NCBI GenBank assembly: GCA_003611875.1
Contig: RAYY01000038.1
Coordinates: 1-43,519 of the forward strand
DNA from: a bacterium D16-56
GTDB taxonomy: Bacteria > Bacillota > Clostridia > Lachnospirales > Lachnospiraceae
Length of the DNA: 43,519 nt
Reading direction: 5' to 3'
Positions 24,047 to 42,067 of this stretch are shown here, in pieces (position 1 is the first letter of the stretch; each line of letters opens with the position of its first letter). A program made the translations under genes and the position numbers. The notes beneath the pieces are model-generated. The model had not been told where the DNA came from, did not search any database, and was given only the letters and a program-made list of their open reading frames with translations.

Positions 24047-24332
24047 TATGAAATAAAAATATCATTGTCAGCAGCCTGTCCGCTGCTCCTCTATAGATTC
24101 TGAAAAACAAATCTTCCCTATCGAATTCCTCCTGCTATTAACAATATATTCAAAAATTTCTGAATTGCCATTGCTTTTCGCGTCAATCACCAGCTTCCCT
24201 ATAAGCAGCTTTTTTTTATATGACAGGTTTTATTATAATCGATTTCCCACCCCTTTACAACCAAAATCTTTCCCCTGTTCTACTCCTTTGATTCCACCAT
24301 ATATTATAATAATTTCCCCTTTTGGAGAACCC

Positions 24333-25199
24333 ATGATATCAATATCTGAGCTTTCCCCCAAAAAACGCGCCTTTCTCACCGGCACCATCCTTCTCACCAG
24401 CACAGGCTTTGCCTGCCGGGTGCTTGGCTTTTTCTACCGCATTTTCCTTTCCCGAACAATCGGCGCAGAGGGCCTTGGCGTCTACAACATGGTACACCCG
24501 ATATTCGGCATTTGTTTTGCCTTGTGCGCAGGCTCCATTCAGACCGCCCTTTCACAGCATATTGCCTCCCACATAGCCAGAGGACGTTCCATTTTCAGAA
24601 CTGGCATTGTGATTTCTATGACCATGTCTTTTGTACTTGCCTTTCTGATCTGCCGCCATGCTCAGTTTTTAGCAAGTGCGGTGTTAATGGAGCCGCGCTG
24701 CGCACCCTTTCTTCCCATAATGGGCATCTCTGTACCCTTTGCGGCTTTCCATGCCTGCATCAATGGCTACTACTATGGCGTGCAAAAATCCCATGTTCCC
24801 GCCTTTTCCCAGGTAGCGGAACAAATCATCCGCATGGCTGCCGTATTTCTTATTGCAAGCTATTGGATGGCCTCCGGACACACCATTACCGTTATGCTGG
24901 CTGCCTACGGACATCTGGTAGGGGAAGCTGCCTCTGCTGTGTTCACCCTGCTCTGTCTGTATCTGTTTCCCCCGCAGACCGAGGTTATTTCTGCCGGCCT
25001 TCTCTCCCCTGACACTGCTGCCCCTCTGATGGCCCTGGCCCTTCCCCTGATGGGCAACCGGCTGGTGCTGAACCTCCTTTGCAGTGCCGAAGCTATCTGG
25101 ATTCCCAGCCGTCTGCAGATGTCCGGCCTGAAAAGCGACCAGGCTTTTGCTGTTTACGGCGTACTGACGGGAATGGCCCTGCCGGCTGGTGTCAAGTAA
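24333..25199 (+). CDS. SpoVB/MATE-like polysaccharide flippase, truncated by the integrative element
   Basis: A 288-residue protein with an N-terminal flippase pattern (Leu-Thr-Gly-Thr, Arg-Val-Leu-Gly-Phe-Phe-Tyr-Arg, Gly-Ala-Glu-Gly-Leu-Gly-Val-Tyr) and several membrane segments. The family exports cell-wall precursors or is needed for spore cortex (SpoVB). Full-length members have about 450-540 residues with 14 membrane segments. Here the frame leaves the family pattern after Gly-Met-Ala-Leu-Pro and stops five codons later, exactly where the element begins. GGAG lies six bases before the ATG at 24333. The 3' half should lie beyond the right end of the element, outside this window. Confidence 0.85.
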   Translation: MISISELSPKKRAFLTGTILLTSTGFACRVLGFFYRIFLSRTIGAEGLGVYNMVHPIFGICFALCAGSIQTALSQHIASHIARGRSIFRTGIVISMTMSFVLAFLICRHAQFLASAVLMEPRCAPFLPIMGISVPFAAFHACINGYYYGVQKSHVPAFSQVAEQIIRMAAVFLIASYWMASGHTITVMLAAYGHLVGEAASAVFTLLCLYLFPPQTEVISAGLLSPDTAAPLMALALPLMGNRLVLNLLCSAEAIWIPSRLQMSGLKSDQAFAVYGVLTGMALPAGVK

Positions 25200-25200
25200 G
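25180..25200. other. Presumed attachment-site junction (attL or attR) of the element
   Basis: The flippase reading frame loses its family pattern immediately after a Leu-Pro pair (CTGCCG). The stop follows within about 15 bases, and the first element gene ends 53 bases later. The dinucleotide GG at about 25187-25190 is a possible crossover core. The opposite junction is needed to prove it. Confidence 0.4.
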
Positions 25201-25252
25201 GGAATAAAGAATATCTACCCAAACGGAGCGAAGCGGAGTCTGGGTTTCCCCT

Positions 25253-26806
25253 TTACTTCAATTCAATCTTCACTCTCCCCACATCATACACCCATATCAC
25301 CTCCACAAACCTCTCTACCATATCCCGGTCCAGTTTAATATCATCCTGGTAGCCACCATATCTCTCCACAAGTTCCTTTTTATCCTCCATATCCTCCATA
25401 GATTCCCGGATTATCTGGGTTTCCTGCTGACATACCTGAATTTCATCCTGTATACTTCCCTTTTTCCTCAGAAACTCCTCCTTCGTAAGTTCCCCATGTT
25501 TATATTCGCTGTAGCACTGCGCCTTTAAGTCTTTCTTTCGCTCAATCTCTCTTTCCAGACGTTCCAGACGCTTCCTTGCCTGCCGCCTTTCTTCTCCTTT
25601 CCCTTTTCTTTTTGACTCTGCCTTTATGGTTTCAGCCAGCCGCATCTGGACCCGGATCATACTTAAAAGAGCCTCCAGAATCTCCCGTTCCTTTATATGT
25701 CCCCGAAAACATTTACTGTCTGGGCTCAAATGAGGCTGTTTACAAAAAAATGAATGATACTGTGCTCCATATTCTGAAGGCTTATAATATAAAAAGTGTC
25801 CGCAGTTTGCACACCGAACCTTTCGATACAGAATATGGTGTTCCTTTTTATACATACCACGTTTTTTCACAGGTCTCAAACTCTGTACCCGTTCAAAATC
25901 TTCCCTGAGAATAATGGCCGGCATCCCCATTTCTTTGCGAAACCACGTATGCTCCGGCGCCTCCTCTACATTTTTGCTTCCCACTCCCTTTCCCCGGTAA
26001 TGGCCGATGATCAGCGTCCCTGCATATCGTTCATCCCGTAAAATGTTCAGCACCTTTGTAGAATCCCAGACCGATCTCTCCCCCTCTTTTAAGCCATATC
26101 CAAAACTTCCGTTTTTTCGTTTCGCCATACCTGGTGTAAGACATCCTTGTTCATTCAGCACTCTTGCAATCTCAATATTTTTCTTCCCCTGAAGAGCCAG
26201 ATGAAAAATCAGCCGCACCACTTTAGCTGCCTCCTCATCAATCCCATAAGGTATCCCATCCCGTTCAATCTCTCCCCGATCCCTCTTTCTATATCCAAAG
26301 GGATAAGAGCCGCTGCACAGCTTTCCGTTCTTAATCATCTGCCGTTTCGCCGCCTTTACTTTCGTGGAGATATCCTTACTATACAAATCATTTAAAATCC
26401 CCTTAAACGGAATCTCCAGGTTGTCATGACTGCTCTGAAAACTGCTGTCATATCTGTCATTTACAGAAATAAAACGAACATCCATAAACGGAAATATCTG
26501 CTCCGCATAATTCCCCAGTTCAATATAATCCCTGGTAAATCGGGAAAAATCCTTCACCACCAGACATGCCACCTGGTTCTTTTTAAGAAGGTCCAGGAAT
26601 CTTTTGATTCCCGGACGATTAAAGTTGGTTCCTGTATATCCGTCATCAGACAGTTCCAGACTGGTAAGTTCTCTTAAATCCTCCCTTTCCTCCACATAAT
26701 CTTCAATAAGCTTTCTCTGGTTCCTGATACTGTTGCTTTCCCCGTCTGCCTCATCTTCCAGGGAAAGGCGGTAATACTTAACCAGCAGTCTCTCCTCTCT
26801 CTTCAT
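25253..26806 (-). CDS. Large serine recombinase 1 of the element
   Basis: A 517-residue recombinase. The catalytic Ser lies in Tyr-Tyr-Arg-Leu-Ser near residue 14. The resolvase domain is followed by Lys-Asp-Phe-Ser-Arg-Phe-Thr-Arg, the recombinase domain, a zinc ribbon (Cys-Ala-Asn-Cys... Cys...Cys) near 330-370, and a coiled coil from about 390. I chose the ATG at 26806, with GGGGAGGGG upstream. It overlaps the second recombinase gene by 29 bases. It is the gene nearest the boundary, so the stop is 53 bases from the host gene remnant. Confidence 0.93.
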   Translation of the reverse strand: MKREERLLVKYYRLSLEDEADGESNSIRNQRKLIEDYVEEREDLRELTSLELSDDGYTGTNFNRPGIKRFLDLLKKNQVACLVVKDFSRFTRDYIELGNYAEQIFPFMDVRFISVNDRYDSSFQSSHDNLEIPFKGILNDLYSKDISTKVKAAKRQMIKNGKLCSGSYPFGYRKRDRGEIERDGIPYGIDEEAAKVVRLIFHLALQGKKNIEIARVLNEQGCLTPGMAKRKNGSFGYGLKEGERSVWDSTKVLNILRDERYAGTLIIGHYRGKGVGSKNVEEAPEHTWFRKEMGMPAIILREDFERVQSLRPVKKRGMYKKEHHILYRKVRCANCGHFLYYKPSEYGAQYHSFFCKQPHLSPDSKCFRGHIKEREILEALLSMIRVQMRLAETIKAESKRKGKGEERRQARKRLERLEREIERKKDLKAQCYSEYKHGELTKEEFLRKKGSIQDEIQVCQQETQIIRESMEDMEDKKELVERYGGYQDDIKLDRDMVERFVEVIWVYDVGRVKIELK

Positions 26807-28481
26807 TGATAACCCCTCCCCCTTTTGCTCTAAGCAGTCTCTGCATTTCATCCTGAAATTTAAAAGAAACTCTTACTCTGTTTCCCTCATAAATTTCAAT
26901 CCTCTCTATCAACCTGTCAACCAATTCCCTTGACAACAGGAAATCATCCGGGAGTTCTGATACTGCTTTCAATGCAGGATTCTCCGATGTATAGGCCAAA
27001 ATATATTCCTGTTTTCTGCCCATCAGCTCCTCTCTTTCCCCTTCACACCCGGTCAGTTCCTCCTCATATCGCTTCTTCATATAGAGATATTCGTCCTGGT
27101 CAAGAATCCCTTCCTTCCAATCCTGATAGAGCGCTGCCATTTTCTGCACAAGACGGTTCCGTTTATCCTCTGTTTCTCTAAGGGTCTGTTCAAATCGGAA
27201 CAACTCCCTTGCTTCCTCCTGCTCCCTGCTATGGAGCCATTCTTTGACCTGGCAGGCCGCCTCAATCTGTCTCCGGATCAGACAGCCAAGCATCTCAAAC
27301 AGTTCCTGCTCCGGTAAAAACTTGCGGCTGCACTGTCCCGTTTTTTCATGCATATCACAGACATACCGATACTTATCTTTACATGACTTGATATGCTTCC
27401 TTACCATAGCCCTTTTACAATCACCACAAAACACTTTTCCCTTCAAAATACCGCTGTTTTCTGATTTCCCAGCCAGTCTCCGATTCTCTTGTATCATTTT
27501 CTCATACTGCCTATGCCTGTCCATACGGATTTCCTGCACTCTGTCAAACTGCTCTTTCGATATGATTGCTTCATGAGTTCCTGAAACAATATCCCACTCA
27601 CTCTTAGGAACCACTTCTTTCTTCCCTTTTATTTCCTTACTTCTTCTTGCTCCCTGAACCATATCCCCTATGTAAACACGACTGGTCAAAATACCCGCTA
27701 TGGTCTGCGGATACCAGCCAGATGTGTTGGCATACTTGGCATTTTTTACAATTCCCTTCTCATATTTATACCTGGCCGGACAGAGAACCTTACGTTCATT
27801 GAGATACTTTGCTATGGCAGAATCACTGTATCCCTTCTCACACAAATCAAAAATGGTTTTCACATGAACCGCTGCCTCCGGGTCCACTCCAATCACATGT
27901 TTATCCGATGTTTTTTCATATCCGTACATGGCATAGGCGCCCAAAAAACATCCCTTTTTCCTCAATACCTTTTTTGCGGAACGCTCCTTTTTAGAAATAT
28001 CCCTGGCATAGTTCTCATTCATGATATTCTTAAGAGGAATCAGGTAGGACAACTGGGCCGGAGTAGCTGTCAGTGTATCAAAGCCATCTGTAACCGCAAT
28101 AAACCGAACATTCAGAAAAGGAAACACATGCTCAATATAATGCCCTGCTTCCAGATAATTTCTTCCGAAGCGTGACAGATCTTTTACTATAATACAGTTG
28201 ATCCGCCCACTTCTTACCTCATCCATCATCTGCTCAAATCCGCTTCTCTTAAAATTCGTCCCCGTCTTTCCATCATCCGTAAATGTGGAAATCAGACGGA
28301 AATCCGGCTTGTTTTTAATAAAATCCTTCAACAAAGCAAACTGATTCTCAATGGATTCACTGTCCCTGTCCTTCGCCTCTTTATCCGATAATCTCAAATA
28401 GAATCCCACCTGATAACCAATGGTTTTGCTAAAACTTTCCCTGGTTTGAACGCCGCTTTCCTTTCTACTTTTTCTGGCCAT
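26778..28481 (-). CDS. Large serine recombinase 2 of the element
   Basis: A 567-residue recombinase. The catalytic Ser lies in Tyr-Leu-Arg-Leu-Ser near residue 30, with Lys-Asp-Leu-Ser-Arg-Phe-Gly-Arg in the resolvase domain. The zinc ribbon is Cys-Gly-Asp-Cys... Cys-Asp-Met-His...Cys, followed by a Glu/Arg-rich coiled coil. I prefer the ATG at 28481, with AAGGGGAGA upstream. It overlaps both neighbours (29 and 17 bases), so all three are translated as one unit. Its sequence differs clearly from its neighbours. Confidence 0.93.
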   Translation of the reverse strand: MARKSRKESGVQTRESFSKTIGYQVGFYLRLSDKEAKDRDSESIENQFALLKDFIKNKPDFRLISTFTDDGKTGTNFKRSGFEQMMDEVRSGRINCIIVKDLSRFGRNYLEAGHYIEHVFPFLNVRFIAVTDGFDTLTATPAQLSYLIPLKNIMNENYARDISKKERSAKKVLRKKGCFLGAYAMYGYEKTSDKHVIGVDPEAAVHVKTIFDLCEKGYSDSAIAKYLNERKVLCPARYKYEKGIVKNAKYANTSGWYPQTIAGILTSRVYIGDMVQGARRSKEIKGKKEVVPKSEWDIVSGTHEAIISKEQFDRVQEIRMDRHRQYEKMIQENRRLAGKSENSGILKGKVFCGDCKRAMVRKHIKSCKDKYRYVCDMHEKTGQCSRKFLPEQELFEMLGCLIRRQIEAACQVKEWLHSREQEEARELFRFEQTLRETEDKRNRLVQKMAALYQDWKEGILDQDEYLYMKKRYEEELTGCEGEREELMGRKQEYILAYTSENPALKAVSELPDDFLLSRELVDRLIERIEIYEGNRVRVSFKFQDEMQRLLRAKGGGVINEERGETAG

Positions 28482-30168
28482 CCTGGTTCTCCCCTTTACG
28501 CTCATGATTTTGATACTCCTGATATATTGCTGCGGTCTGCAAAGCCATTTCGTAATCGTATTGGAATCGAAACACGATCTTTATGCGGCCTTTTTCAAAA
28601 ACCTTTATCTTCTCCACCAGCTTCAAAATAATGTCTCTGGACAGAGAATGGAGATTCTGGTACTGTAAAAAGGATTCCATCCATTCACTCTTTCGGATAT
28701 TTTCTATTTTGCACAATTCCTGCTCTTCCTTCAGGCGGGCCTTCTTTTTCTCCAGTTCACCCATCTGCTTTGTATAGATTTGTTTCAGTTCAAAATACTC
28801 ATCCTTATCAATGACGCCATCGGTCAAATCCTCATATAAAGAAACCTTTAAGTTTTGTATCCGGACAATCTCCTCATTTATTTTTAACATCTGGATGTCA
28901 AGTTTCTTCGTCTCCTGTCTGAAATGAGGCGTGTTTTCCAGGATTGTCAGCACCTGCTTTAAATTGATTAATGCGGAAATATGGTTATTTAAAGCAATCA
29001 GAACCACCTTTTCCAGCTCCCCTTCACGAATCATATGACTGGTACAGCATTTGTCCTTCTTATAACCAGAGCACACATAATAAGGATATTTTCTTGGTTT
29101 TCCCTCCGAATCCTTTCCGGCACTTACCAGCTTCCGAACCATGGCGGCCTTGCAATCTCCACATTCCAACATCCCCGAAAATAAATACACCCTTGCTTTT
29201 CCCGGAGATATCCTGGTATCCATTTTCATCAGGTTCTGTACGGTCTGAAAGTCTTCCTCTGTGATAATGGCTTCATGCATATCCCTCACAATCACCCACT
29301 CATCCGGATTCTTTTCAATCACCTTTTTTACTTTGTGGTTGGGGGTGGTCCTTTTCCCCTGGACCACCCACCCCAGATAAGTCTGATTCGATAAAATCCG
29401 TCCAATGGCAACCGGACTCCACATAGCCTGCTTCTCCACATGAAATCCACTTTGATACCGAAGGCCAAGAGACCGTTTATACTCTGCCGGCGATAAGACT
29501 CCCTGTTCATTTAGTCTCTCTGCTATTTTTTCATTACTCATACCAGAGAGCCGCCATTTAAAAATATCTCTCACCACAACAGCCGCATATTCATCCACAA
29601 CCAACTGATTTTTATTTTCAGGATTCTTTTTGTATCCGTATACAGCAAAAGAGCCAATAAACTCTCCTCTCTTCCGTTTTATCTCAAACTGGCTCCTTAC
29701 CTTTACAGAAAGGTCTCTGCTGTAAGAATCATTCATCAGGTTCTTAAAGGGCAGCATAATACTGTCCTCCACATCATTTCCTTTCGCGCTGTCATAATTG
29801 TCATTTACCGCAATAAAGCGCACACCCAAATAAGGGAAGATTTTTTGAATAAACCTTCCCACCTCAATGTAATTCCTTCCGAAGCGTGATAAATCCTTGA
29901 CAATAATACAGTTTGTCTTCCCCGCCTTTACATCTTCCATCATCTGTTTAAAGGCAGGACGTTCAAAATCCACGCCGCTAAAACCGTCATCCACTCTCTC
30001 CTCACAAAGAATGATCTCCGGTTTGTCCTTTACATAATCCTCTATTAAGCTTCTCTGGTTGCTGATACTGTTGCTTTCCCCTTTGCCTGAAACGGCAAGA
30101 TCTCCATCGTCATTTGAAATGCGATAATATGGAGTGGCGTAAAAAACACCTTCTGAATAACCGCGCAA
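28465..30168 (-). CDS. Large serine recombinase 3 of the element
   Basis: A 567-residue recombinase with catalytic Ser in Tyr-Tyr-Arg-Ile-Ser near residue 19, Lys-Asp-Leu-Ser-Arg-Phe-Gly-Arg, the zinc ribbon Cys-Gly-Asp-Cys...Cys-Ser-Gly, and a long coiled coil. I suggest a TTG start at 30168, with AGGAGAG eight bases upstream. A GTG at 30177 sits directly on that site. It is the first of the three recombinase genes to be transcribed. Confidence 0.93.
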   Translation of the reverse strand: MRGYSEGVFYATPYYRISNDDGDLAVSGKGESNSISNQRSLIEDYVKDKPEIILCEERVDDGFSGVDFERPAFKQMMEDVKAGKTNCIIVKDLSRFGRNYIEVGRFIQKIFPYLGVRFIAVNDNYDSAKGNDVEDSIMLPFKNLMNDSYSRDLSVKVRSQFEIKRKRGEFIGSFAVYGYKKNPENKNQLVVDEYAAVVVRDIFKWRLSGMSNEKIAERLNEQGVLSPAEYKRSLGLRYQSGFHVEKQAMWSPVAIGRILSNQTYLGWVVQGKRTTPNHKVKKVIEKNPDEWVIVRDMHEAIITEEDFQTVQNLMKMDTRISPGKARVYLFSGMLECGDCKAAMVRKLVSAGKDSEGKPRKYPYYVCSGYKKDKCCTSHMIREGELEKVVLIALNNHISALINLKQVLTILENTPHFRQETKKLDIQMLKINEEIVRIQNLKVSLYEDLTDGVIDKDEYFELKQIYTKQMGELEKKKARLKEEQELCKIENIRKSEWMESFLQYQNLHSLSRDIILKLVEKIKVFEKGRIKIVFRFQYDYEMALQTAAIYQEYQNHERKGENQDGQKK

Positions 30169-30288
30169 AAAACTCACTCTCCTGACATAATCAATTAAGT
30201 CAGAAAACTGATTGCCTGGTTGATAAGCTTTTCTGATTTTATTCCTGAAACTATTGTAACAATTTTTGAAGGATTTGTCCAGATACTT

Positions 30289-30546
30289 TTAGCTTATCTG
30301 GCTTTCAATAAATTCCTTCAGGCAATCGTTAATGGTTTTATCAGTATCGCTGTATTCGACCTGGACAATCAGCTTCCCACAACGGAAAAAATAGGGATTC
30401 TTAATCTGCCTTACAAATTCCATCATTCGTTCTTCCACTGGTAAATCCGTATTTATTTTCACGTTCTCTATATGTTCTAATGTATCCGGCCTAATCGTCC
30501 TGATATCTAAATTTTTTAAATCTGCTGTATGAGCTGCTGCTACCAT
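30289..30546 (-). CDS. DUF6870 family small protein
   Basis: An 85-residue protein matching the DUF6870 pattern: Val-Asp/Asn-Ile... Leu-Pro-x-Glu-Glu-Arg, Phe-Val-Arg-Gln-Ile-Lys-Asn-Pro-Tyr, Cys-Gly, then Tyr-Ser-Asp-Thr. GGGAGG lies six bases before the ATG. It lies next to the recombinase genes, which is typical of such elements. Function unknown; a regulatory or accessory role in transfer is a guess. Confidence 0.7.
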   Translation of the reverse strand: MVAAAHTADLKNLDIRTIRPDTLEHIENVKINTDLPVEERMMEFVRQIKNPYFFRCGKLIVQVEYSDTDKTINDCLKEFIESQIS

Positions 30547-31174
30547 AGCATTCCTCCCTTAGACTATCTAAGCATACGTTTGTGTCATATATCTGAATAT
30601 AGGAAGCCTGTTTTCTTTAAATATATACAAACAGCGCTTTGTCCTATTCTCTCCAAAGCAAATCTCTGTGCCGTATTTCCCCGTCCCCCGGCACCGGAGT
30701 TGTCCTGCCCGTTTGCAAAACGGCTTAAACCAGGCCGGATCTTGCCATCACGGCTTCGCCTCCCCTCCTTCGGTGAGGGACAGTCCCCACAAGTCTCCGG
30801 CAGATTCTTTTCTTCGCACAGCTTTGAAGGCAAATCCGGTTAAGAATGTTATTGACATATTGACACATTCTGCCAGATACCTGCCAAAGCCATCAGGCCC
30901 TTGCCAGGGCCTATTTTTGAGTGGATATTCATCGCGGCAGCGAAATCTCTGCCATAGCGTATCCCCCACATGCTCAGAATCTGCCTGCGTTACAGAACAA
31001 CTGAACCTATTCTGCTGTCAAGGTACATTGGCTTTTGGGCCTTTCATAAAATAAATAGGATTCTTATAAGACTTTTTTGGAATTTTTCTCAGATAATTTC
31101 AGATTCATTTACAATCAGAAGGCAGCTTTCGTATTTAAAAGCTGCCCCCCCCCCTGATAATACGCCTTGCCGTT
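30547..31174 (-). other. 628-bp gap without a gene
   Basis: The stretch holds overlapping, mutually inconsistent open frames with low-quality translations on both strands. A GC-rich segment is at 30660-30800. A run of ten C (31145-31154) lies 21 bases from the stop of the next gene. It probably includes the promoter and 5' leader for the DUF6870-recombinase unit. I could not identify boxes with confidence. Confidence 0.4.
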
Positions 31175-32356
31175 CTACATAAACTCAAACAGACTCATCT
31201 GCTGGGGCTTGTTCCTCTCCTCCTCCTGATACTTCTGATGTCGTCTCTCCAAAACCTCTATCTTCTCCTGCCCAAACCACTTCAAAGCATGGTGATAATC
31301 CAGGGAAAATGGCTCCAGGCTGTCCCAGCCATTTTGCACAATCTTCTGCTCCAGCCTTTTCTCCCGCTTTTCTTTCTGCTTCGCACGGTTCTGCTTTTTC
31401 AGCTCTTTATTCCTTTTTTCCTGATCCGAAGCATGGACAATGGTGATTCCCTCCCGGATATCCTGCAGGTCCTGAAGCAGATCCCGGCTCTCCCTGCGTT
31501 CGGCCCGGATATTTAAGACCTCCACTTTCCAGCCATAGACAAACATCTCACTATGGTACTTCATCTGCTCATGGCTGATAATCAGTTTTCTCCCATACCG
31601 CACAATGTTCTCACAGATTGTCATGGATTTACTGGTTTCCAGTAACCGGCACCCTTTCTGGATACTGATCTCCTTCTGGCCGTCAAACAGCGTACCGTCA
31701 CGGCGGATTCGTGTAATCTTCACATCATAGAATACATTCCCCCGTTTTTTGGAAATCAGCGTGTGCTTCAGGTCGCAGGTTCCGCCTGTATTCATACACA
31801 TCCTGGCACATTCCATCGGGTCATACCTCTGCTCCCACTGCTCCGTCCATTCGTTATAGCTGGTCTGCCAGTAGCAGACATGGCCTTTCTTCTGCCTCTT
31901 TAGCTCCTCATATTTTTCCCTGATTCTCTTGTGACGTTCATCCCAAACCCGATCCTTGCTGTGTTCATACTCATAGGGCACATCCACCTCATGACAGTCG
32001 CACTGACTGATTTTGCAGATACCACCGCCTTCAACATGGTCCAGCAAGGGGCTGCGAAGCGTACACTGTTCCTTTTTGTAAGGGCAGAGAATCACCGGAT
32101 TATTATTTTCCGGCTTCCAGTCAATACCCATATAAGACATATATCCGTTTGAGAAATCCGACCCCCGGCACAAAAGCCCACAGCCGGTGGAATAAACCTT
32201 CTGGTTCTGATACCAGTTTTCATATTGGAAGCCTCCCATAATGTCAAATAATTTCCGGTCGCAAACCGGATTGGGCATTTTGGCATAGCCAGGATAATGT
32301 TCAAAAGTATACCCCTGCTCAAAGAGTTTTTGCGTAAAAAGGTTGTACTCTTTCAT
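31175..32356 (-). CDS. Cys-rich element protein with a C-terminal clamp-like motif
   Basis: A 393-residue protein I do not recognise. The N-terminal half has many Cys residues (for example Cys-Gly-Leu-Leu-Cys, Cys-Pro...Cys, Cys-x-Cys-His) that look like zinc sites. The middle is basic and beta-like. A Lys/Glu-rich coiled coil lies at about 310-345. The protein ends Gln-Met-Ser-Leu-Phe-Glu-Phe-Met, which fits the Gln-x-x-Leu-Phe beta-clamp binding motif. AGGGG precedes the ATG. It may act in element replication or repair; this is inferred only from the motif. Confidence 0.75.
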   Translation of the reverse strand: MKEYNLFTQKLFEQGYTFEHYPGYAKMPNPVCDRKLFDIMGGFQYENWYQNQKVYSTGCGLLCRGSDFSNGYMSYMGIDWKPENNNPVILCPYKKEQCTLRSPLLDHVEGGGICKISQCDCHEVDVPYEYEHSKDRVWDERHKRIREKYEELKRQKKGHVCYWQTSYNEWTEQWEQRYDPMECARMCMNTGGTCDLKHTLISKKRGNVFYDVKITRIRRDGTLFDGQKEISIQKGCRLLETSKSMTICENIVRYGRKLIISHEQMKYHSEMFVYGWKVEVLNIRAERRESRDLLQDLQDIREGITIVHASDQEKRNKELKKQNRAKQKEKREKRLEQKIVQNGWDSLEPFSLDYHHALKWFGQEKIEVLERRHQKYQEEERNKPQQMSLFEFM

Positions 32357-32365
32357 GGCAGGCCC

Positions 32366-32572
32366 CTACAATCCCAGACAGGGCCGCATTCCAAATACAT
32401 TTTCCATGCGCCTGCGAAGATCTTCCGGCTCCATGTCATATTCTTTTGCAATACAGTCCTCACAGCAGGGATATTTGTAGGCCAGTACCTTTGATATCCG
32501 CTTATCCCAGGTACTGATCTGCCGGCCACAGCTATTGCAGTATTCGTCAAGCCATTTTCCCTTTAACTCCAT
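32366..32572 (-). CDS. Small zinc-finger protein
   Basis: A 68-residue protein with Cys-Asn-Ser-Cys and Cys-Cys-Glu-Asp-Cys pairs, which should bind one zinc ion, followed by a charged helix. AAGGAGGAGCC directly precedes the ATG at 32572. The frame is open to 32611 but the upstream ATG has no site. It ends ten bases before the Cys-rich 393-residue gene, so the two are co-expressed. Function unknown. Confidence 0.65.
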   Translation of the reverse strand: MELKGKWLDEYCNSCGRQISTWDKRISKVLAYKYPCCEDCIAKEYDMEPEDLRRRMENVFGMRPCLGL

Positions 32573-32625
32573 AGGCTCCTCCTTCTTTTTCCGAATGGTT
32601 TTCATTTTCATATTGTGGTATCACA

Positions 32626-32651
32626 AAAGGCCGCAGTTTCCCACGGCCTTT
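32626..32651 (-). terminator. Terminator of the AAA/DUF4143 gene
   Basis: AAAGGCCG pairs with CGGCCTTT around a ten-base loop, and on the minus strand TTTTG follows. It lies 30 bases after the ATPase stop and separates that gene from the next unit. Confidence 0.6.
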
Positions 32652-32680
32652 CTTAATAGAATCTCTATTCTTTCTTATTT

Positions 32681-34045
32681 TTAAAACTCAAATCGCTCCA
32701 GCATATAAAGAGGCAGCGTGAAAATTTTCCCTTCCCTGCCGCCCTTTGTGTTGCCTTTCAGATACAGCAGGTAATCCGCCTTTCCAGCCTCCAATGCTTT
32801 AAGGGCAGTAGCCGCCCTTCCCTTTCCTGATTTCACCTCCACCAGATATCTTCTGTGTCCCCAGATTGTCTGCACCACATAGTCAATCTCTCCGCCCTTA
32901 TATGTGGCAAATGCCGGCATTTCAAAGGTAATCTCCTCCGGGAAATCCTGGCGCTTCAAAAGATTGATGAACACATAATTCTCATTCAGCGTTCCGTTAA
33001 CAGCCGCCTCCGTAGTTCCTACCCTGTTTAAATAGTAGGCCGCAACCCCTGGGTCCATAAAGAAACATCGTCTTCCCGGCTTAAAATCCAGAAAGTCCAT
33101 TTCAATAATCTTTCCGCAGAATCCGATAATCCCCGAATGGTACAGCCAGCTAATCGCCCGGTTGCAGGTTTCCTTTGACAAATTGCTGGAATAATTCTTC
33201 GTCACCAGCTTTTGCAGTTCTTCACTGACACTGTCCTCCTCCAGACCTTTCTTTTCCCGCAAAAGGATACGGCAGATACTTAAGAAAATATTAGTAAACA
33301 CACTGATATCCGTAATATCCTTAAAATACCGCATGGATTCTTCCAAAAAAATCTGGATAATCCGCACCAGCTCCTTTCGGGCTGCCAGAACGTCCCGCCT
33401 TTCCAGATATGCTTCCACTACCTTCGGATAGCCGCCAATCTGGCAGTACTGGTCATAGGCCAGTCTCAGCCGGTCATACACCTCCGGGCAGTTGTCATCT
33501 GCCTCAGGCGAAGGAAGGCTTCTCCATGCCTGGTAAAGTTCCCCGTCCAGTGCCTCCAGAAATTCCTCAAAGGAAAGGGTATAAATCCGCAGCTTTGTAA
33601 TATCCCCACTGGCATAGTGAAACTCCGGTTCCAGCACACGTCCAAGGTAGCTTCCCGTGACGATAAACCGCGCCTGAAACTGTCTGGTAAACTCTCTGAT
33701 CCGGTTATAAATTTCCGAAGATTCCTGAATCTCATCAATGATAATCACCGTATCCCCACAGTCCTGAAAGGAAGGTTCATATAGGCGGACCGCCTCATGA
33801 AGCGGAAACTCCGGCCGTCTGCTTCCCGGAACCCATTCCGTTGCTTTCTGATAGCACTCCATAAACTGCTTTCCGGAAAGGTCAAACAAATTAATGTAAA
33901 TTTTATGCTTGAAATTTTCATCCGCAAATTTATTGATGATGTAAGTCTTTCCGGTCTGCCTGGCACCGTTTACCTCCAAGGTGCTGTGGCTTTTGTCGTT
34001 CTTCCATTCCATCAGCCGGTCATATATTTTTCGTTTCAGATACAT
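32681..34045 (-). CDS. AAA ATPase with DUF4143 nuclease-like C-terminal domain
   Basis: A 454-residue protein. The Walker A motif Gly-Ala-Arg-Gln-Thr-Gly-Lys-Thr lies at about 27-34, Walker B Ile-Ile-Ile-Asp-Glu at about 100, with a Thr-Gly-Ser sensor after. The C-terminal DUF4143 part has Gly-Glu-Ile-Asp-Tyr-Val-Val and Val-Glu-Val-Lys-Ser-Gly, a pattern like PD-(D/E)xK nucleases. GGAGGTG lies eight bases before the ATG at 34045. It has its own terminator, so it is a separate unit. The family is widespread on mobile elements. The role is unknown, possibly defence or addiction. Confidence 0.88.
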   Translation of the reverse strand: MYLKRKIYDRLMEWKNDKSHSTLEVNGARQTGKTYIINKFADENFKHKIYINLFDLSGKQFMECYQKATEWVPGSRRPEFPLHEAVRLYEPSFQDCGDTVIIIDEIQESSEIYNRIREFTRQFQARFIVTGSYLGRVLEPEFHYASGDITKLRIYTLSFEEFLEALDGELYQAWRSLPSPEADDNCPEVYDRLRLAYDQYCQIGGYPKVVEAYLERRDVLAARKELVRIIQIFLEESMRYFKDITDISVFTNIFLSICRILLREKKGLEEDSVSEELQKLVTKNYSSNLSKETCNRAISWLYHSGIIGFCGKIIEMDFLDFKPGRRCFFMDPGVAAYYLNRVGTTEAAVNGTLNENYVFINLLKRQDFPEEITFEMPAFATYKGGEIDYVVQTIWGHRRYLVEVKSGKGRAATALKALEAGKADYLLYLKGNTKGGREGKIFTLPLYMLERFEF

Positions 34046-34232
34046 GGGAACCACACCTCCTACTGCTGTTTTTCTCTGCCTTAATCTTACACAATTCCGC
34101 TTTCGCCTGCCTGCCGCCAGTTCGACCGCTGCTGTCCAATCGCTGTACTACTTTCATTATACCAAAAAACACCGGGATTCCTACCGATATTTTAGGGAAA
34201 AGCGGAAAAATCTTTTTCCTGAATCTTTCTAT

Positions 34233-34262
34233 GGGGAAGCAGCCTAACTTTCCTGCCTCCCC
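34233..34262 (-). terminator. Terminator-like hairpin after the DUF6809-like gene
   Basis: On the minus-strand RNA, GGGGAGGCAG pairs with CTGCTTCCCC (one G-U pair) over a ten-base loop. The T-run is missing, so termination is uncertain. The rest of 34046-34373 holds no gene that I can support. Confidence 0.45.
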
Positions 34263-34373
34263 TTAGTTTCACATCCTTATATGCAAAATCACTCCCTGCT
34301 TATATTCCCTTAGCATGTCGGTACAACCGCTGACTATTGCCCATATATTTGTTGCTCATGTATCTGTTATCCA

Positions 34374-34778
34374 TCAACTTTCTCCCGGCACACCAAGTCC
34401 AGCCATAATCAGATTTACCGCCAGCCGGAACCCATGCTGAAACATCCGGCAGCTCTCCGATGAAGTATATCCACTCATCTTACAACTGCATGTTTCAAAC
34501 AGCTTCCATTGTTCCTCATTCAGTTCCTTTTGTAATTCCTCCTGAAGAAGCGTGATCTCTTTCAGCTTCTCATTGCTGTAACCTTCCGTAGAACTTACTC
34601 CGATGTCCACATTCCCAAAGTAAAGCTCTCTCAGGAAATCGTCTCCCACCTCTGCTGGCAGCACCACTGGAGCCTGCTTCCGGTTCAAAGCCTCTGTCAC
34701 ATCCTCCAATGCCCGAATCAATTTCGGAATCTGCACTTCAAAAAACCGCTTTTCTCCATTTGTCCGACAAAATTTCAT
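34374..34778 (-). CDS. DUF6809-like protein
   Basis: A 134-residue helical protein. The pattern Glu-Leu-Tyr-Phe-Gly-Asn-Val near residue 50, the coiled segment Leu-Gln-Glu-Glu-Leu, Glu-Glu-Gln-Trp-Lys-Leu-Phe and the C-terminal Phe-x-His-Gly-Phe-Arg-Leu-Ala-Val fits proteins I know as DUF6809. AAGGAGG precedes the ATG. It is co-directional with the 34797 gene, 18 bases away. Function unknown. Confidence 0.6.
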   Translation of the reverse strand: MKFCRTNGEKRFFEVQIPKLIRALEDVTEALNRKQAPVVLPAEVGDDFLRELYFGNVDIGVSSTEGYSNEKLKEITLLQEELQKELNEEQWKLFETCSCKMSGYTSSESCRMFQHGFRLAVNLIMAGLGVPGES

Positions 34779-34796
34779 AACATCTTTCCTCCTTGC

Positions 34797-34982
34797 TTAC
34801 TCCTTGTCACCCATCTGCTTCGCAATCCACACTGCCATCTGGTAAGCTTCCTTTGCTTTACCCTCCAACTTTACGGCAACCTCTATACAGCCAATTAGTT
34901 CCTTATTGATTGCAGTAAGACGGCCGCCATAAAAAACGCAGGCGTCATACAGTAACTCCAGATCCGCTTCACTGAACTCCAC
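34797..34982 (-). CDS. Hypothetical 61-residue helical protein
   Basis: A short acidic, Ala/Leu-rich helical protein. I chose a GTG start at 34982 because AAAGGGG lies eight bases upstream. The ATG at 35024 directly abuts its only possible site (AAGGAAGG). With that start it would be 75 residues. It lies between PcfJ and the DUF6809-like gene. I do not recognise it. Confidence 0.5.
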   Translation of the reverse strand: MEFSEADLELLYDACVFYGGRLTAINKELIGCIEVAVKLEGKAKEAYQMAVWIAKQMGDKE

Positions 34983-35078
34983 TGTCTTTACCCCTTTACA
35001 TTCCTCTCCCACAAGTAACCACATCCTTCCTTATACAGAAACAACTATCTCCCAGCCTCTCCAATAGCCACCAAAAAA

Positions 35079-37373
35079 TCATGCTGCCACAGCCAGAACC
35101 AGTTTCTCCTTCTGCTCTGTTTCCTGCTCTTCCTGCTTGATACACTCCTCACTTCTGTCTGATAAATTGCCGCTTACTAAACCGTCTCCCGGCAACCCCA
35201 AATTCCTGTCTCCCACTTCCGCGCTTCTCACTGCCTCCATCAAATCTCTCTCCAGCACGTCCGCCAGCAGCTGTCCCTGCAAATGCCCATGCCAAATCTT
35301 GGCCTTTTCCTCCCGCAGCTTCTTAAATTCCTCCACCCGGAGCCTGGAGCTTTCCTTTGCAAGCCGGTAATCCTCCAGAGTAAGCCTTTTCTGGATCTCC
35401 TCCTGCCATTTCCTTAAAAACACCACAGCGTCCTCTAAGTCCTTATTCTGCCTGTCGCCTACGGTCCGTTTCTGCCGGATTGTCCCGTCCGGCTCCACCT
35501 CCAGGGTATAATAAGGCTTGTCCGGCTCCTCCGCCTTCCGAAGAAACATGATATAGGACTCCCTGTTTTGAATCCGTTCATAATAGATATCACTGGAATC
35601 GGCGCAGTGCCTTAAGGCCTGCCCTTCATACATGATATCCTCCACCTTCTCCGGCGCCACAATCCGGTACTTCCTATCCGCAAATTCAAACTTTTCTTTT
35701 ACGGACTGGCAGATTTTATCAACATCCGGATATTTCTTAGTAACTTCCACCGCACGCATGGCAATCTCTTTATTCCCGCACAGCTCCACAGCCTCATCAT
35801 GGCTCTCCAGCAGATTCCTGGGTTTGAAAAAAATCTCCCTGGTAATATCCCTTCTCAGCCTGAACGACATGGAAAGATAATCTGCCCAAGTGGAAAGAAG
35901 CTCTTTTGGCGGCCTTCCGGACAATTTGTGCTGTTTTTCCACATAATTTTTAATCCGCACCACGCTCATTTGCTCCGATATAAAACCCAGGTCTTTCGGC
36001 TCAATCTGATATCCGGAAAAATAGTCAATCACCGAATCCGGTATTTCTTTTCCCTGATGTTTCTCTAAGATCAGCCATTTCAGATACACGCTCCCTCCGT
36101 CATGCTCCCTGAGCCGTTTCATCCGGTATCGGTCTATGCCAATGGATTTGGCAAAATCCGAAGACTCTCTGATCTTAAGGTCCGCCTTCCCATTGTAGAC
36201 CTCCTCAGACAACCGGAACAGGCCGCATTTTACCAGTCTCTCCAGATAAGGTTTCTTCCTTAAATGATACAAATACTGCTCCGGATCGGTCTGCTCTCTC
36301 TGTCTGGCAAACTGGGCCAGCCCCGTCCGCATAAGTCCCCGGCACTCCGGGTCCGGCAAGGAAATACCATACAACTGTCCCTCATACTTTTCTTTAAAAT
36401 ACTGCCAGTATACGCTGGGACGGTCATAGCTCAGACTGCTGGTTTCAATCCACCGGAAATCCCTCTTTTTGTATAACCCATAGTAGAAGGTTCTGGCTGC
36501 CAGGCCGTCTCCATAAATAACCCGCCTCTCTTCCTGGCAGATATAGTCCGGGTTTTCGTATTCTCCCTTCTTATAACAGCGCCATGCCCGAAACTCCCGC
36601 AGCACCATTCCGTCCCGGCACTCCTGGAGCAGATAGACATACCGCTTATCGGTCCAGAAGCTGCCTGCCCGTCCCCTGGCCTTAAACTGGATTTTATGGC
36701 CGCAGGCAGGACACACGCCTTCTTTCTTGTGTTTGGGCTTTTCAATGGGAACCTCCTTCTCACACCAGCTGCAATACCCTTTCTGGTTCTTTTTCCTGGA
36801 GTAATCGTAGAACATGTAATTCTGTCCGATTCCCTCCTTGTCAACCCAGTGGTCCCAGTCCTTTGGCAATTCCGGAACCTGCTCCAGATACCGATCCCAG
36901 GGGTCTGTCTGCTTTTTGTGCCTTTTCTTAAGCTGTTCCTCCCGTATTTTTCTCTGATATTCCAAAAGCCCCTTGTATCCGCCTTCCGAAACGCCCAGAT
37001 ACGTTTGCAGGATCTTGTTATCTTTGGGACCCATATATCTATCCGTTCCCCAGAATGCGTGAGGCCAGTCCAGATAATCCACCTTCGCCCCTCTCCATTT
37101 CTCCAGAACCGAATCCCAGGTCACAAAGTCTCTGGCCTCCCTGTCTACAAATACCTGATACACAGGTCTATGGCTCCCTATGCGCAGGTCCCTTGTGAGA
37201 AACAGCGACACCTTCAGGATTCCCTTCTCCACCTGGCACCTCATAAAAAGCCCCCGGCTGAAAGATTCCTGATTATCATACTCATTTCTTTTTGGCACTT
37301 CCTTTTTTGCCATCTCCATGATCTGCCTTGTTGCATTTAAACATTTCAGTTTCTTTAACTGTGATTTCTTCAT
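35079..37373 (-). CDS. PcfJ-like protein
   Basis: A 764-residue soluble protein. A zinc ribbon (Cys-Ser-Trp-Cys ... Cys-Pro-Ala-Cys-Gly) lies at about 200-225. The PcfJ domain is seen at about 590-650, with Tyr-Glu-Gly-Gln-Ala-Leu-Arg-His-Cys followed by a Tyr-Ile-Met-Phe-Leu-Arg strand. PcfJ is known from the pCF10 conjugation region but has no established function. The start overlaps the stop of the DUF7666-like gene (ATGA). The C-terminal 60 residues are Glu/Gln-rich and probably disordered. Confidence 0.85.
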   Translation of the reverse strand: MKKSQLKKLKCLNATRQIMEMAKKEVPKRNEYDNQESFSRGLFMRCQVEKGILKVSLFLTRDLRIGSHRPVYQVFVDREARDFVTWDSVLEKWRGAKVDYLDWPHAFWGTDRYMGPKDNKILQTYLGVSEGGYKGLLEYQRKIREEQLKKRHKKQTDPWDRYLEQVPELPKDWDHWVDKEGIGQNYMFYDYSRKKNQKGYCSWCEKEVPIEKPKHKKEGVCPACGHKIQFKARGRAGSFWTDKRYVYLLQECRDGMVLREFRAWRCYKKGEYENPDYICQEERRVIYGDGLAARTFYYGLYKKRDFRWIETSSLSYDRPSVYWQYFKEKYEGQLYGISLPDPECRGLMRTGLAQFARQREQTDPEQYLYHLRKKPYLERLVKCGLFRLSEEVYNGKADLKIRESSDFAKSIGIDRYRMKRLREHDGGSVYLKWLILEKHQGKEIPDSVIDYFSGYQIEPKDLGFISEQMSVVRIKNYVEKQHKLSGRPPKELLSTWADYLSMSFRLRRDITREIFFKPRNLLESHDEAVELCGNKEIAMRAVEVTKKYPDVDKICQSVKEKFEFADRKYRIVAPEKVEDIMYEGQALRHCADSSDIYYERIQNRESYIMFLRKAEEPDKPYYTLEVEPDGTIRQKRTVGDRQNKDLEDAVVFLRKWQEEIQKRLTLEDYRLAKESSRLRVEEFKKLREEKAKIWHGHLQGQLLADVLERDLMEAVRSAEVGDRNLGLPGDGLVSGNLSDRSEECIKQEEQETEQKEKLVLAVAA

Positions 37374-37954
37374 GCTGGAATTGCTGCTCCTTTCCTCATG
37401 CTTTTCACTGGATTTCCGTGGACGTTATACCATGTATCCGGCAAAATCTCCTTGCCGTCAACGATATAAAGCCCCATTTCCATTCCCTCTCTGCTTCCGC
37501 TTTTTTCTTTTACCATTCCAAGAACATCCCCCAGCTTCCCACAGGCTCTTGGAGATTTTCCTCTCACAATCACAAAGCCTTCCTTTCCGGTTCCGCTTTC
37601 CTTACACACCCGCCGGTTATTCTCCCTGAGGGGATGATTCCAGATATAATTCAGGCTGTGGGCCACAAACTCCTCCAGGTTCAACCGCTTTACCAGCCGA
37701 AGCCTGGTACATGAGATTCTGCTGCCATTTTCATCATCATTGATATCCCCGGCTGCTACCACCAGATAGTAGACGGATTTCTCCATGGAGGGATAATAGG
37801 TCAGACAGTCCAGGGGATTTTCCGCACAGTGGAACCCGTTCTCTCCGCACTTGGCCCTGGGCTCCTCATTCCAGCGGTCAGGGGCATACTGGAAACGGTT
37901 TCCTCTTGATGTGCAGGACAAATCCAGGTCAAATCCTTTATAGGCAAGTATCAT
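37370..37954 (-). CDS. DUF7666-like protein
   Basis: A 194-residue protein. The segment Gly-Phe-His-Cys-Ala-Glu-Asn-Pro-Leu-Asp-Cys-Leu-Thr-Tyr-Tyr at about 40-54 fits a domain I know as DUF7666, often found in mobile elements and phages. AAAGGAG lies upstream of the ATG. It overlaps the PcfJ gene by four bases, so both are translated together. Function unknown. Confidence 0.55.
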   Translation of the reverse strand: MILAYKGFDLDLSCTSRGNRFQYAPDRWNEEPRAKCGENGFHCAENPLDCLTYYPSMEKSVYYLVVAAGDINDDENGSRISCTRLRLVKRLNLEEFVAHSLNYIWNHPLRENNRRVCKESGTGKEGFVIVRGKSPRACGKLGDVLGMVKEKSGSREGMEMGLYIVDGKEILPDTWYNVHGNPVKSMRKGAAIPA

Positions 37955-38070
37955 CTCTTTACGCTCCTTTATCTTCTCCTTTTCATGCTTCCATACAAGG
38001 GTCCGCCTTGTATCCGTTTCTCTTTGAACATGATTGTTCTCTCATCATTCACCTATATCGCTGCCTTCCT

Positions 38071-38910
38071 TTAGGCCGCTGGTCCCATACTAAACATAGA
38101 CACCTGCCCTTCAATCTGTCCTTTCTCTGAAGCGTTCGGCTCTGTCTCCGGTAAATCCTCTGTCTGGATATTCTCCGATAACGTATCCCCGGTTTCCCTT
38201 TTCTCTGCCAGACTCTTTTCCGAATCTGCCACATTGCCACTGGCACCGGCCTTTCCAGAAATCCCTGCCTCCGAACTCTTTTTTGATGTTTTAGAGGCTT
38301 TAGAAGTTTTTGAGGTTTTGGAAGCCCTCTTTTTAGAAGTTCCCCTACCCGCAGCCTTGTTTTCCTTTGGCTTATTCCGCTCCGCAAACTCCTTCTCTGC
38401 TTTTTTCCGCTTTTCTTCCAGGGCTGCTTTGTCGTCCAGAGTATAGTAGCTTTTCACCCACTCAAATACCTGGTCTGATACTACAGCCACCGCCGTGTTC
38501 TTTCTGGCTTTTTTCTGGTTTTCATCCAATAATCCGTAAGCCTGCTCCATTACATATTCAATACATCTCTGTAATGTCTTATGCTCCTGAAGCACAGATT
38601 CCTGAAAGCCTGGTTCGCTGCAGCACTGGAGCAGATAACCGCCAATCACGTTGCCAAAAAGTGGATCATTCAGGATAAGCATTTCATCCATCAGTTTCGC
38701 TCTAGCCGTGTCATAGGTCTTCTGTGTCTCTCCTGCGTCAACAAGAAAATACCGCTTCCCCAGAAAAAATGCTTCAAAATCCTCATCCATTACCCGGTTC
38801 TTGTCTGCCAGTTCCTTTAGCTTTTCCCTCATTCCCAGCCGCCGCAGCTCCGCTGCCATGCGGTTGACTTCATGGATATTTTCCATCTTATCAAAAATGC
38901 TTTTTGCCAT
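38071..38910 (-). CDS. PcfK-like protein with an AcrIIA9-type domain
   Basis: A 279-residue protein. The segment from about residue 95 to 165 (Gly-Gly-Tyr-Leu-Leu, Cys-Ile-Glu-Tyr-Val-Met, Gln-Val-Phe-Glu-Trp-Val, Tyr-Tyr-Thr-Leu-Asp-Asp) fits the PcfK family, which includes the Cas9 inhibitor AcrIIA9. After it come a charged linker with Ser-Lys-Thr repeats (about 190-215), an acidic region, and the end Gln-Val-Ser-Met-Phe, a weak clamp-motif match. The ATG at 38910 has AGGGAGA at six bases. An ATG at 38916 abuts that site. Cas9 inhibition is possible but not shown by sequence alone. Confidence 0.72.
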   Translation of the reverse strand: MAKSIFDKMENIHEVNRMAAELRRLGMREKLKELADKNRVMDEDFEAFFLGKRYFLVDAGETQKTYDTARAKLMDEMLILNDPLFGNVIGGYLLQCCSEPGFQESVLQEHKTLQRCIEYVMEQAYGLLDENQKKARKNTAVAVVSDQVFEWVKSYYTLDDKAALEEKRKKAEKEFAERNKPKENKAAGRGTSKKRASKTSKTSKASKTSKKSSEAGISGKAGASGNVADSEKSLAEKRETGDTLSENIQTEDLPETEPNASEKGQIEGQVSMFSMGPAA

Positions 38911-39040
38911 GTTCATTCTCCCTGTTAATACAATTCCACCAGTGATTATTGTCCGCCATTACAATTTGGAAATCGGAAATGGCTGCCGCTAAAATGAAAA
39001 CACCTCTGGTACAGCAGCCATTTTACAAAAAGCAAGGCTT

Positions 39041-39076
39041 AAAAAGGCCGGGAATTTGATTACTTCCCAGCCTTTT
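39041..39076 (-). terminator. Terminator after the 187-residue gene
   Basis: A 13-bp stem, AAAAGGCTGGGAA with TTCCCGGCCTTTT on the minus strand (one G-U pair), followed by T. It starts seven bases after the stop. A second small hairpin (ATGGCTGC/GCAGCCAT) lies at about 38980-39021. Confidence 0.75.
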
Positions 39077-39082
39077 AGCAGA

Positions 39083-39646
39083 TCAGGCCGCAAGATCATT
39101 TTCCTGCTGCCCGTCCTCTCCATATCCCATTTCCATTTCCGGCAAGGCAGTCTCTCCGCCTGTCTCCTGATCAAGCCCCATTCCTTCCTGCCCAGGCTCT
39201 ATTTCATACTGTTTGTCTGCTTCATATTGCCCCTCCGTTTCCTGCAATCCTGGCTCCTGCGCTTCGTTTTCCGCCGAACCACCCTGGTTTTGAAGTTCCT
39301 GTCTCTCCTTGTCCTCCCGTTCCAGCAGCTCCAACAGCGCCAGCATAATCCCCCGGCACCAGGGATTCATCCACTTCTGGTTAAAGTCCTGGATATCCTT
39401 CACAATCCTCTCCCAGACCTCATCCGTGTATTCTCCCCCTGCATACTGCTTAAAAAAGCCATAACATTCCTTCATCACATCATTGTAGGGAACCTTCACC
39501 GCCTCATCCAGCCTGCCGATAAATGCCATGAGCAGCGGCTCATCCTGATACACGTCCATCAACGGCTCCAGTCCCAGAGGCTGGGTCCCGTTAAAAAACA
39601 CGAACATGTCATTGAACAGGTTCCTTACCAACATCTGATAATCCAT
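39083..39646 (-). CDS. Hypothetical element protein with an acidic tail
   Basis: A 187-residue protein I do not recognise. The first ~115 residues are compact and helical with aromatic residues (Trp-Met-Asn-Pro-Trp near 92). From about 120 onward the sequence is Glu/Gln/Gly-rich and probably disordered. AAGGAGA lies before the ATG. A terminator follows directly. Confidence 0.65.
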   Translation of the reverse strand: MDYQMLVRNLFNDMFVFFNGTQPLGLEPLMDVYQDEPLLMAFIGRLDEAVKVPYNDVMKECYGFFKQYAGGEYTDEVWERIVKDIQDFNQKWMNPWCRGIMLALLELLEREDKERQELQNQGGSAENEAQEPGLQETEGQYEADKQYEIEPGQEGMGLDQETGGETALPEMEMGYGEDGQQENDLAA

Positions 39647-39734
39647 TCCTGTCTCCTTCCTATACGTTTTCTGATTCTTGTTCTCAGTTATTTCTCTACG
39701 TCTTATCTAGTTTCCTTTTATGATATCAGACTCC

Positions 39735-39773
39735 ATTCCCACCCGCCGCAACTCCGCTGCCATGCGGTTGACT
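39735..39773 (-). pseudogene. Fragment of a pcfK-like 5' end
   Basis: Thirty-seven of 39 bases match 38831-38869, inside the pcfK-like gene. Read on the minus strand it encodes Val-Asn-Arg-Met-Ala-Ala-Glu-Leu-Arg-Arg, as in that gene (about residues 15-27). No start or continuation is visible. It is probably a remnant of a second pcfK copy or of a small duplication. Confidence 0.7.
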
Positions 39774-39822
39774 CCTTACACTTCTTTAGCTTCCTGCCTT
39801 CTAGTCAGAGGCTTTCGCTCTG

Positions 39823-41527: not shown

Positions 41528-41698
41528 TCTCTCCCGTCCTTTGCAAAATAGATTCTGCTCTTGACGGAAAAGCCATACTTCCTTCGGTGTGTCTTTTTAC
41601 GCCCCTTACCGTTCTTTTTCAAGGCCAGGGCTTACAGTAGCCCGTCCTCTAAGGGACAACCCGGAGTTTTCCCCGGGAAATGAGGGAATGAAACCTTT

Positions 41699-42067
41699 CT
41701 AAATCTCAAACTGGATATTCGCAAAGGCCAATGGCTTGATCTCCAGAATGGTCACGTTGGAAATCATCCGGTACGGCCGTTTTGCGTTGTGATTTTCCAC
41801 CCAGTTACTCATCTGCATTTCAATCTCTATGTATGCCTCCTCATGGTCCGGGTTCAGCAGCGCGTATTTCTTCGCTGTCCTCCCATTTCCCCTTATGGTC
41901 ATGTAGGAATAGGAAACCTCATAAAGCGTGGCCCGGATTCCCCCGGAGAGGAACTGGGACGGGTGGAGCTTTTTTATAAACTCCCGGTACTCCTCTGTGG
42001 CCGGCAGCGTTCCTCCAATCCCGATCTCCTGAAAACAGGCTAAATCCGCGTATTTATGGATATGCAC
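41699..42067 (-). CDS. Hypothetical 122-residue protein
   Basis: A protein with alternating beta-like segments and no Cys motif or membrane segment. A GTG start with AAAGGAG five bases upstream is good. It lies 21 bases after the DUF5688 gene, in the same unit. I do not recognise it. The 41528-41698 gap that follows has a CCCGG/CCGGG hairpin (about 41658-41675). Confidence 0.65.
   Translation of the reverse strand: MHIHKYADLACFQEIGIGGTLPATEEYREFIKKLHPSQFLSGGIRATLYEVSYSYMTIRGNGRTAKKYALLNPDHEEAYIEIEMQMSNWVENHNAKRPYRMISNVTILEIKPLAFANIQFEI

Follow-up and report, generated by a model that had tools for sequence, protein, structure and literature searches.

The window analysed here is a whole contig of 43519 bases (C133) from the Lachnospiraceae bacterium D16-56 (genome G000, completeness 97.5%), in which a spoVB-like gene is interrupted by an integrative element carrying serine recombinase genes. 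The 5' half of the gene occupies positions 24333..25183 of the plus strand and comprises 283 codons and two bases of a proline codon. The open frame (24333-25199, 288 aa) reads past 25183 into the element, with a stop at 25199. On the NCBIfam profile TIGR02900 (spore_V_B) it covers positions 1-279 of 488 only, against 1-459 for P0002, the intact orthologue protein used as reference for gap-free and identity comparisons. Close relatives possess a single open frame of 521-529 aa that continues as ...GMALPFILFPSAITNS, where the window frame ends as ...GMALPAGVK before its stop. The loss of the family pattern, placed by the original prediction after about 283 codons, is thus exact to the codon.

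When three intact loci (L012, L013 and L014) were compared by blast with the window and with a second contig of the same genome (C121, ending at 70990), the match to C133 ran to 25183 and then passed to C121, two bases being common to both alignments. For this reason the core dinucleotide of the left attachment site (attL), the presumed crossover point, was placed at the CC of 25182..25183 on the plus strand. The site used by the element (attB), ATGGCCCTG-CC-CTTTATCC, lies inside coding sequence. The left part of the element covers 25184..43519; the end of C133 falls within the element and, as this contig is the whole window, the element runs off the window end. Its first gene, for serine recombinase 1 (25253..26851, minus strand), adjoins attL and encodes, as had been predicted, a large serine recombinase, whose Resolvase and Recombinase domains both pass their Pfam thresholds. 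That a site-specific element has inserted in a spoVB-like gene is in our opinion nearly certain.

The 3' half of the gene and the right end of the element

The original prediction proposed to look for the 3' half of the flippase gene, in frame, at the right end of the element, and it is indeed found there. On C121, positions 66918-67625 are 88% identical to the 3' half of L014 (66912-67631 in the comparison with P0002), in frame and without any stop, and identity to intact relatives amounts to 88-89%. The right attachment site (attR) is located on C121 near 67631, beyond the window. Joined at CC, the two flanks give 521 residues that align with P0002 without gaps at 88% identity. The flanks on C133 and C121 are both syntenic with intact relatives; this synteny, the overlap at the core and the matching ends in other species suggest that these contigs, which are not joined in the assembly, bound one element.

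Searched with TIGR02900, G000 yields both halves, a single complete paralogue (C168) and eight weaker hits, none above 35 bits, so that no second full-length spoVB was found by this search of a 97.5% complete genome. The only close 3' half listed for the assembly is that at the element end. Consequently, neither result named beforehand as speaking against the proposal was obtained: the 3' half is present and no full-length copy was found elsewhere.

Insertion at the same codon in other species

A tblastn search supplied 80 relatives for comparison. Of these, 75 cross the site intact, providing the joined gene that was to be sought in relatives, 4 break at exactly the same codon and 1 stops at a contig end. 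The recurrence of the junction in 4 of the 80 shows that the split is not a chance finding. The four other split loci are L010 (G397, = G434), L011 (G398, = G435), L038 (G399) and L069 (G400, = G111), and with G000 five species share the insertion codon. Both gene halves are open in all five split genomes, the 3' half lying at another place and running without interruption as far as its natural stop. In G397 and G399, the TGA counted within the 3' match marks this natural end and is not an internal stop.

Split genes were found in 3 of the 24 species of genus g1, the other 21 having one open frame, and in 1 of the 11 species of genus g112. A survey of 397 family genomes with the left-junction pattern gave exact matches in two (G000 and G111) and two places at 2 mismatches (L105, inspected over its first 400 bases, and L108). 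A match to the 5' half of spoVB was also observed on contig C34 of G399 (L128), with 81% DNA identity over 344 bases; it was rejected as a second whole spoVB gene, being a fragment restricted to residues 27-113.

Identity of the interrupted gene

SpoVB is the flippase that serves spore cortex formation in the mother cell. The interrupted gene is probably its orthologue. With 286.7 bits on TIGR02900, P0002 remains below the equivalog cut-off of 372.3 bits, a point against this assignment, and the complete paralogue C168 is lower still (203 bits), with a weak match to MurJ in addition. Since no match reaches the cut-off, we infer orthology from the better score, from the presence of the gene in all 35 species searched (24 of 24 in genus g1 and 11 of 11 in genus g112) and from a box upstream of the gene. 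This box, CATATATT (24298..24305, plus strand), seems to resemble the -10 element of mother-cell sigma E/K promoters. CATATA-T is invariant in the 8 upstream regions aligned, and CATAnAnT is present in 20 of the 22 loci examined (out of 80), a count with no shuffle control behind it. The ATA -35 described for sigma E was not found before the CATATAnT box of the gene.

The -10 boxes of sigma E and sigma K are described as very alike, and the sigma E -35 as ATA (PMC3789822). Deletion of spoVB in Bacillus subtilis leaves spores under 10^-5 (PMC12096821), and spoVB is counted among the cortex genes controlled by sigma E (PMC517825).

Recombinases, ends and cargo of the element

Serine recombinases 2 (26778..28505) and 3 (28465..30177), also on the minus strand, are in tandem with recombinase 1. 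In both, the same two domains again pass the Pfam thresholds, and the Zn-ribbon exceeds its cut-off in two of the three proteins. XisF (fdxN element) and Ccr (SCC) are the best NCBIfam matches of all three, with scores far below the curated cut-offs (for XisF, 67, 96 and 115 bits against 375). Relatives of recombinase 1 (57-93% aa identity) adjoin attL in the 3 other split genomes with sufficient contig (G397, G399 and G111). The G111 recombinases are diverged (57-69% aa identity). In the case of G397, recombinase 3 (92% identity) is on a separate contig, and an insertion in recombinase 2 (L133 3184-6359) begins with a ParA-type ATPase gene.

In a search of 14 other genomes, recombinase 3 has matches of at least 71% only in the four split ones (71, 92, 98 and 99%), the 10 intact ones giving at most 49%; remoter recombinases are abundant in most of these 14 genomes, often as tandem sets. 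At E <= 1e-100, only G000 and G111 among 200 family genomes gave a match to recombinase 1 (at most seven candidates scored per genome), in both at spoVB. At E <= 1e-80, it was found in 14 of 392 order genomes (at most three candidates scored per genome), all but G000 being at most 38% identical; G111 was not among the matches listed in this search. Viral contigs gave no match to the two element-end patterns and two loci for recombinase 3, of which one is the window's own record (identical over 13400 bases) and the other 26% identical. Four plasmid records matched recombinase 3 at identities of at most 45% (recombinases 1 and 2 were not sought there), and two phage records matched recombinase 1 at no more than 33% (recombinases 2 and 3 were not sought there). 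In the genomes searched, this recombinase lineage occurs only together with split spoVB.

G111 carries the whole element in one contig. It is about 7.6 kb long and encodes six proteins; from the 5' half to the 3' half of the gene, these are an AAA-ATPase/PD-(D/E)XK protein, the three recombinases (1 to 3), the DUF6870 protein and the product of a 112-aa frame with no family match. The order DUF6870-recombinase 3-recombinase 2-recombinase 1, on the strand opposite spoVB, is common to G000, G399 and G111. In the window, the DUF6870 frame (PF21757; 30289..30546, minus strand, 85 aa) is directly upstream of recombinase 3, and we can only infer that its product is a candidate accessory or directionality factor. 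An inverted repeat, GAATAAAATCAGAAAA...TTTTCTGACTTAATT (30193..30246, minus strand), is located before recombinase 3 and is possibly a binding site. It is related to the right end of the element, where about 100 bases beside attR are conserved in all five split genomes and include a motif like this repeat; the window contains the right-end motif at 30229-30244, its sole match within two mismatches (0.05 expected). The reconstructed arms of the element's own attachment site (attP) form an inverted-repeat match at 16 of 25 positions, a value that simple base shuffling attained in 12 of 20000 trials, and at 14 of 25 in G399.

The remainder of the window element is variable cargo (31175..43427, minus strand), with AAA_14 ATPase, DUF6809, PcfJ-like, DUF7666, PcfK-like, PAPS-reductase-like and DUF5688 genes, none of which is carried by the 7.6-kb element of G111. 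In G399, the element includes in its cargo a BrnT-type toxin gene (PF04365; L137 1807-2109). At the right end in G000, a gene for a Tn916-type tyrosine integrase (PF02920, PF00589; L095 3025-4218, on C121) ends about 400 bases inside the element, and the resemblance to the other right ends is lost about 215 bases into it; a nested conjugative element is likely to lie behind the assembly gap.

In the PHROGs comparison, only the three recombinases among the six G111 proteins have a match, as integrases. Of 10 proteins of the window element, 6 have no match, the PcfJ-like, DUF7666 and PcfK-like proteins fall into PHROGs of unknown function and the PAPS-reductase-like protein into a moron family. 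No phage structural family was found among the proteins scanned (10 from the window, whose cargo was scanned in part, and 6 from G111), the middle of the G000 element being unassembled. As far as these proteins go, we would class the element as a non-phage element with three serine recombinases, gin-like in its anatomy. It does not group with skin-type elements: a spoVB-like gene is hit, not sigK, and the scanned proteins include no phage structural family.

Other triple-recombinase sets

The stretches beyond 14 other tandem recombinase sets were examined, one being too short to use. On contig C43 of G111 (L215/L228), the same genome as the 7.6-kb element, a triple-recombinase set adjoins a SpoVT frame lacking its start (L228 12617-13279; TIGR02851 236.5 bits, cut-off 235.9, profile 8-180 of 180). 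On contig C22 of G399 (L227/L229), a triple-recombinase set with DUF6870 adjoins the frame of a Csp-type germination protease lacking its N-terminal part (L229 2940-4334, minus strand). Its best match is CspBA, at 332 bits and below the cut-off of 1250, and the CspC profile is matched from 105. The missing 5' ends of spoVT (G111) and csp (G399) were not seen in the stretches examined, and we regard both genes as leads to further targets.

A triple-recombinase element on contig C65 of G418 (L219/L230) ends inside a DUF1848 gene (L230 18427-18873, profile 178-262 of 262). By eye, its cargo order resembles the one in the window, although the recombinases next to it are of another set, as if cargo and recombinase sets could be exchanged. 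On contig C3 of G111 (L214 1524-1868), the gene reached at the end of a tandem recombinase set is the C-terminal part of a YhcG-type nuclease gene (profile 61-157 of 157). Other sets end at a serine recombinase (G418), at a TnsA-like frame (G431) and at genes with complete starts. The heptanucleotide CTTGACA, for which there is no chance control, is common to the recombinase-side ends of several sets and of the spoVB element (window 25190-25196, minus strand).

Discussion

The split spoVB-like genes are without sign of decay. The pairwise ratio of non-synonymous to synonymous substitution rates (dN/dS), computed for both halves against relatives of the same genus, is 0.022-0.152 (G000, G397, G398 and G111; ten pairs, one of them split-split), and eight intact-intact pairs within genera give 0.043-0.104. 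Comparisons with G399 give 0.14-0.20 where dS is computable (in one it is not), the intact between-genus pair giving 0.16 and 0.23. spoIVA is above cut-off in four of the five split genomes; none was found in G398, which is about 82% complete.

The element has integrated at a fixed attB within the probable spoVB orthologue, thereby separating its halves, and we suppose that recombination between attL and attR, catalysed by one of the three recombinases, would restore spoVB. Excision, raised as a possibility in the original prediction, would take place in the mother cell during sporulation, the element staying in the spore chromosome, as for the elements gin and skin. To such a regulated excision restoring a working spoVB we would give an even chance. 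The G111 element contains one match to ATA-N16-18-CATA[TC]AnT (0.08 expected), directly before DUF6870 and the recombinases. In the skin element of Clostridioides difficile, the recombinase is constitutive and the directionality factor alone is controlled by sigma E (PMC5025042). A missing sigma E-type promoter before the recombinases therefore does not exclude control.

Several observations weigh against programmed excision. Intact halves alone do not prove it, because the insertions are sporadic and may be recent, without time for decay, and any precise insertion by a serine recombinase gives halves that rejoin in frame. The sigma E-like site of G111 is weak evidence, since the pattern was chosen after inspection of G111, and no site of this form was found in the element stretches of G000, G399 and G397. 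SpoIIID boxes were rejected as evidence, as they are not above chance: TGTAACAAT occurs once, at 30255, with 0.31 expected, and the looser pattern KRTAACARK gave 4 matches versus 3.5 expected. The insertion in recombinase 2 of G397 has severed the N-terminal part of this protein, and the attP arms of G111 match at only 7 of 25 positions.

To these points are added those that speak for a plain parasitic insertion, the alternative that survives best, in which spoVB would be hit simply for its conserved attB, carriers could not finish spores until chance loss of the element, and intact halves would reflect young insertions. The sporadic split genes are scattered over the spoVB gene tree: G398 groups with G418, whose gene is intact (support 100), and separate branches lead to G397 and G000 (93-96). 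Between G000 and G399, the recombinases are 93, 96 and 97% identical in DNA, whereas the G399 spoVB protein shares only about 60-65% identity with P0002; an element so alike in species with such distant spoVB proteins must move between species. Repeated entry into spoVB is probable. The tree, and elements that are too alike in G000 and G399, disfavour one ancient insertion inherited by all carriers; an ancestral insertion plus many losses retains a small probability. Moreover, other triple-recombinase cassettes sit in non-sporulation genes, ending inside genes for DUF1848, YhcG nuclease and serine recombinase. On the other hand, an internal stop is lacking in both halves of all five split genes, and in G111, where the element is so diverged, the constraint on spoVB nevertheless resembles that of intact sisters. 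The retention of the gene in every species searched across two genera also speaks against mere parasitism, which we hold to be unlikely, though to be reckoned with.

Alternatively, the element could act as a reversible switch, excised stochastically or according to growth phase and not specifically in the mother cell, so that a subpopulation with intact spoVB would sporulate. The yin element in yabG, found in both forms in pure culture in a growth-phase dependent manner (PMC10747680), offers a precedent, and the G000 element stretch has no sporulation-type promoter of the form tested. The assembly, however, lists one close 3' half only, that at the element end, which is weak counterevidence obtained at assembly level; we consider such a switch quite improbable. 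That the gene would be a dispensable SpoVB-family paralogue, lost without effect on sporulation, is very improbable: its orthologue scores 287 bits against a cut-off of 372, but the sole complete paralogue reaches just 203 bits and matches MurJ too, and the gene is universal in the 35 species, with a conserved CATATAnT box upstream.

The spoVB element has its closest known counterpart in gin, inserted in gerE of Bacillus cereus ATCC10987, where excision is carried out by GirC, one of three serine recombinases, together with the small protein GirX (PMC5595907). Like the spoVB element, gin is of non-phage nature, occupies an exact site in a mother-cell sporulation gene, encodes three serine recombinases and a small accessory gene, carries variable cargo and has recently spread between strains (PMC5595907). 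It differs by its target, gerE instead of spoVB, by its host, Bacillus and not a Lachnospiraceae-type bacterium, and by the position of girC apart from girAB, the three recombinases of the spoVB element being in one run (PMC5595907). The small gene encodes a DUF6870 protein in the spoVB element and GirX in gin, and any kinship between the two is conjectural. The skin element of C. difficile is likewise an element with a large serine recombinase that interrupts a sporulation gene in a member of the Clostridia, and its excision in the mother cell restores sigK; it differs in being prophage-like, in its recombinase CD1231 and directionality factor CD1234, and in its target (PMC5025042). Vfbin (spoVFB), SP-beta (spsM) and yin (yabG) are also intervening elements of sporulation genes, but are prophages or prophage-like and occupy other genes (PMC4191935, PMC10747680). 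Two reports name sigK, spsM, spoVFB, gerE and yabG as interrupted genes (PMC10747680, PMC5595907), and no report of an element in spoVB was found in the literature searched, which leaves most subscription journals outside its scope. The recurrent and precisely bounded insertion in a probable spore gene is real and joins the gene-intervening elements, with a gin-like anatomy.

A broader and more doubtful proposal is that gut Lachnospiraceae harbour a modular family of elements with three serine recombinases and often DUF6870, which would target spoVB, spoVT and a csp-type germination protease gene and change target by recombinase swap. In this family, excision dependent on sigma E would rebuild spoVB in the mother cell, and the element would thus time the production of the cortex flippase. 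The same codon occupied in five species and the minimal version of 7.6 kb make a restoration of spoVB by excision testable. An intervening element in spoVB would place cortex synthesis, an essential and earlier step, under the control of a mobile element, and gin-like elements would extend to gut Lachnospiraceae, bacteria whose spores may spread them from host to host.

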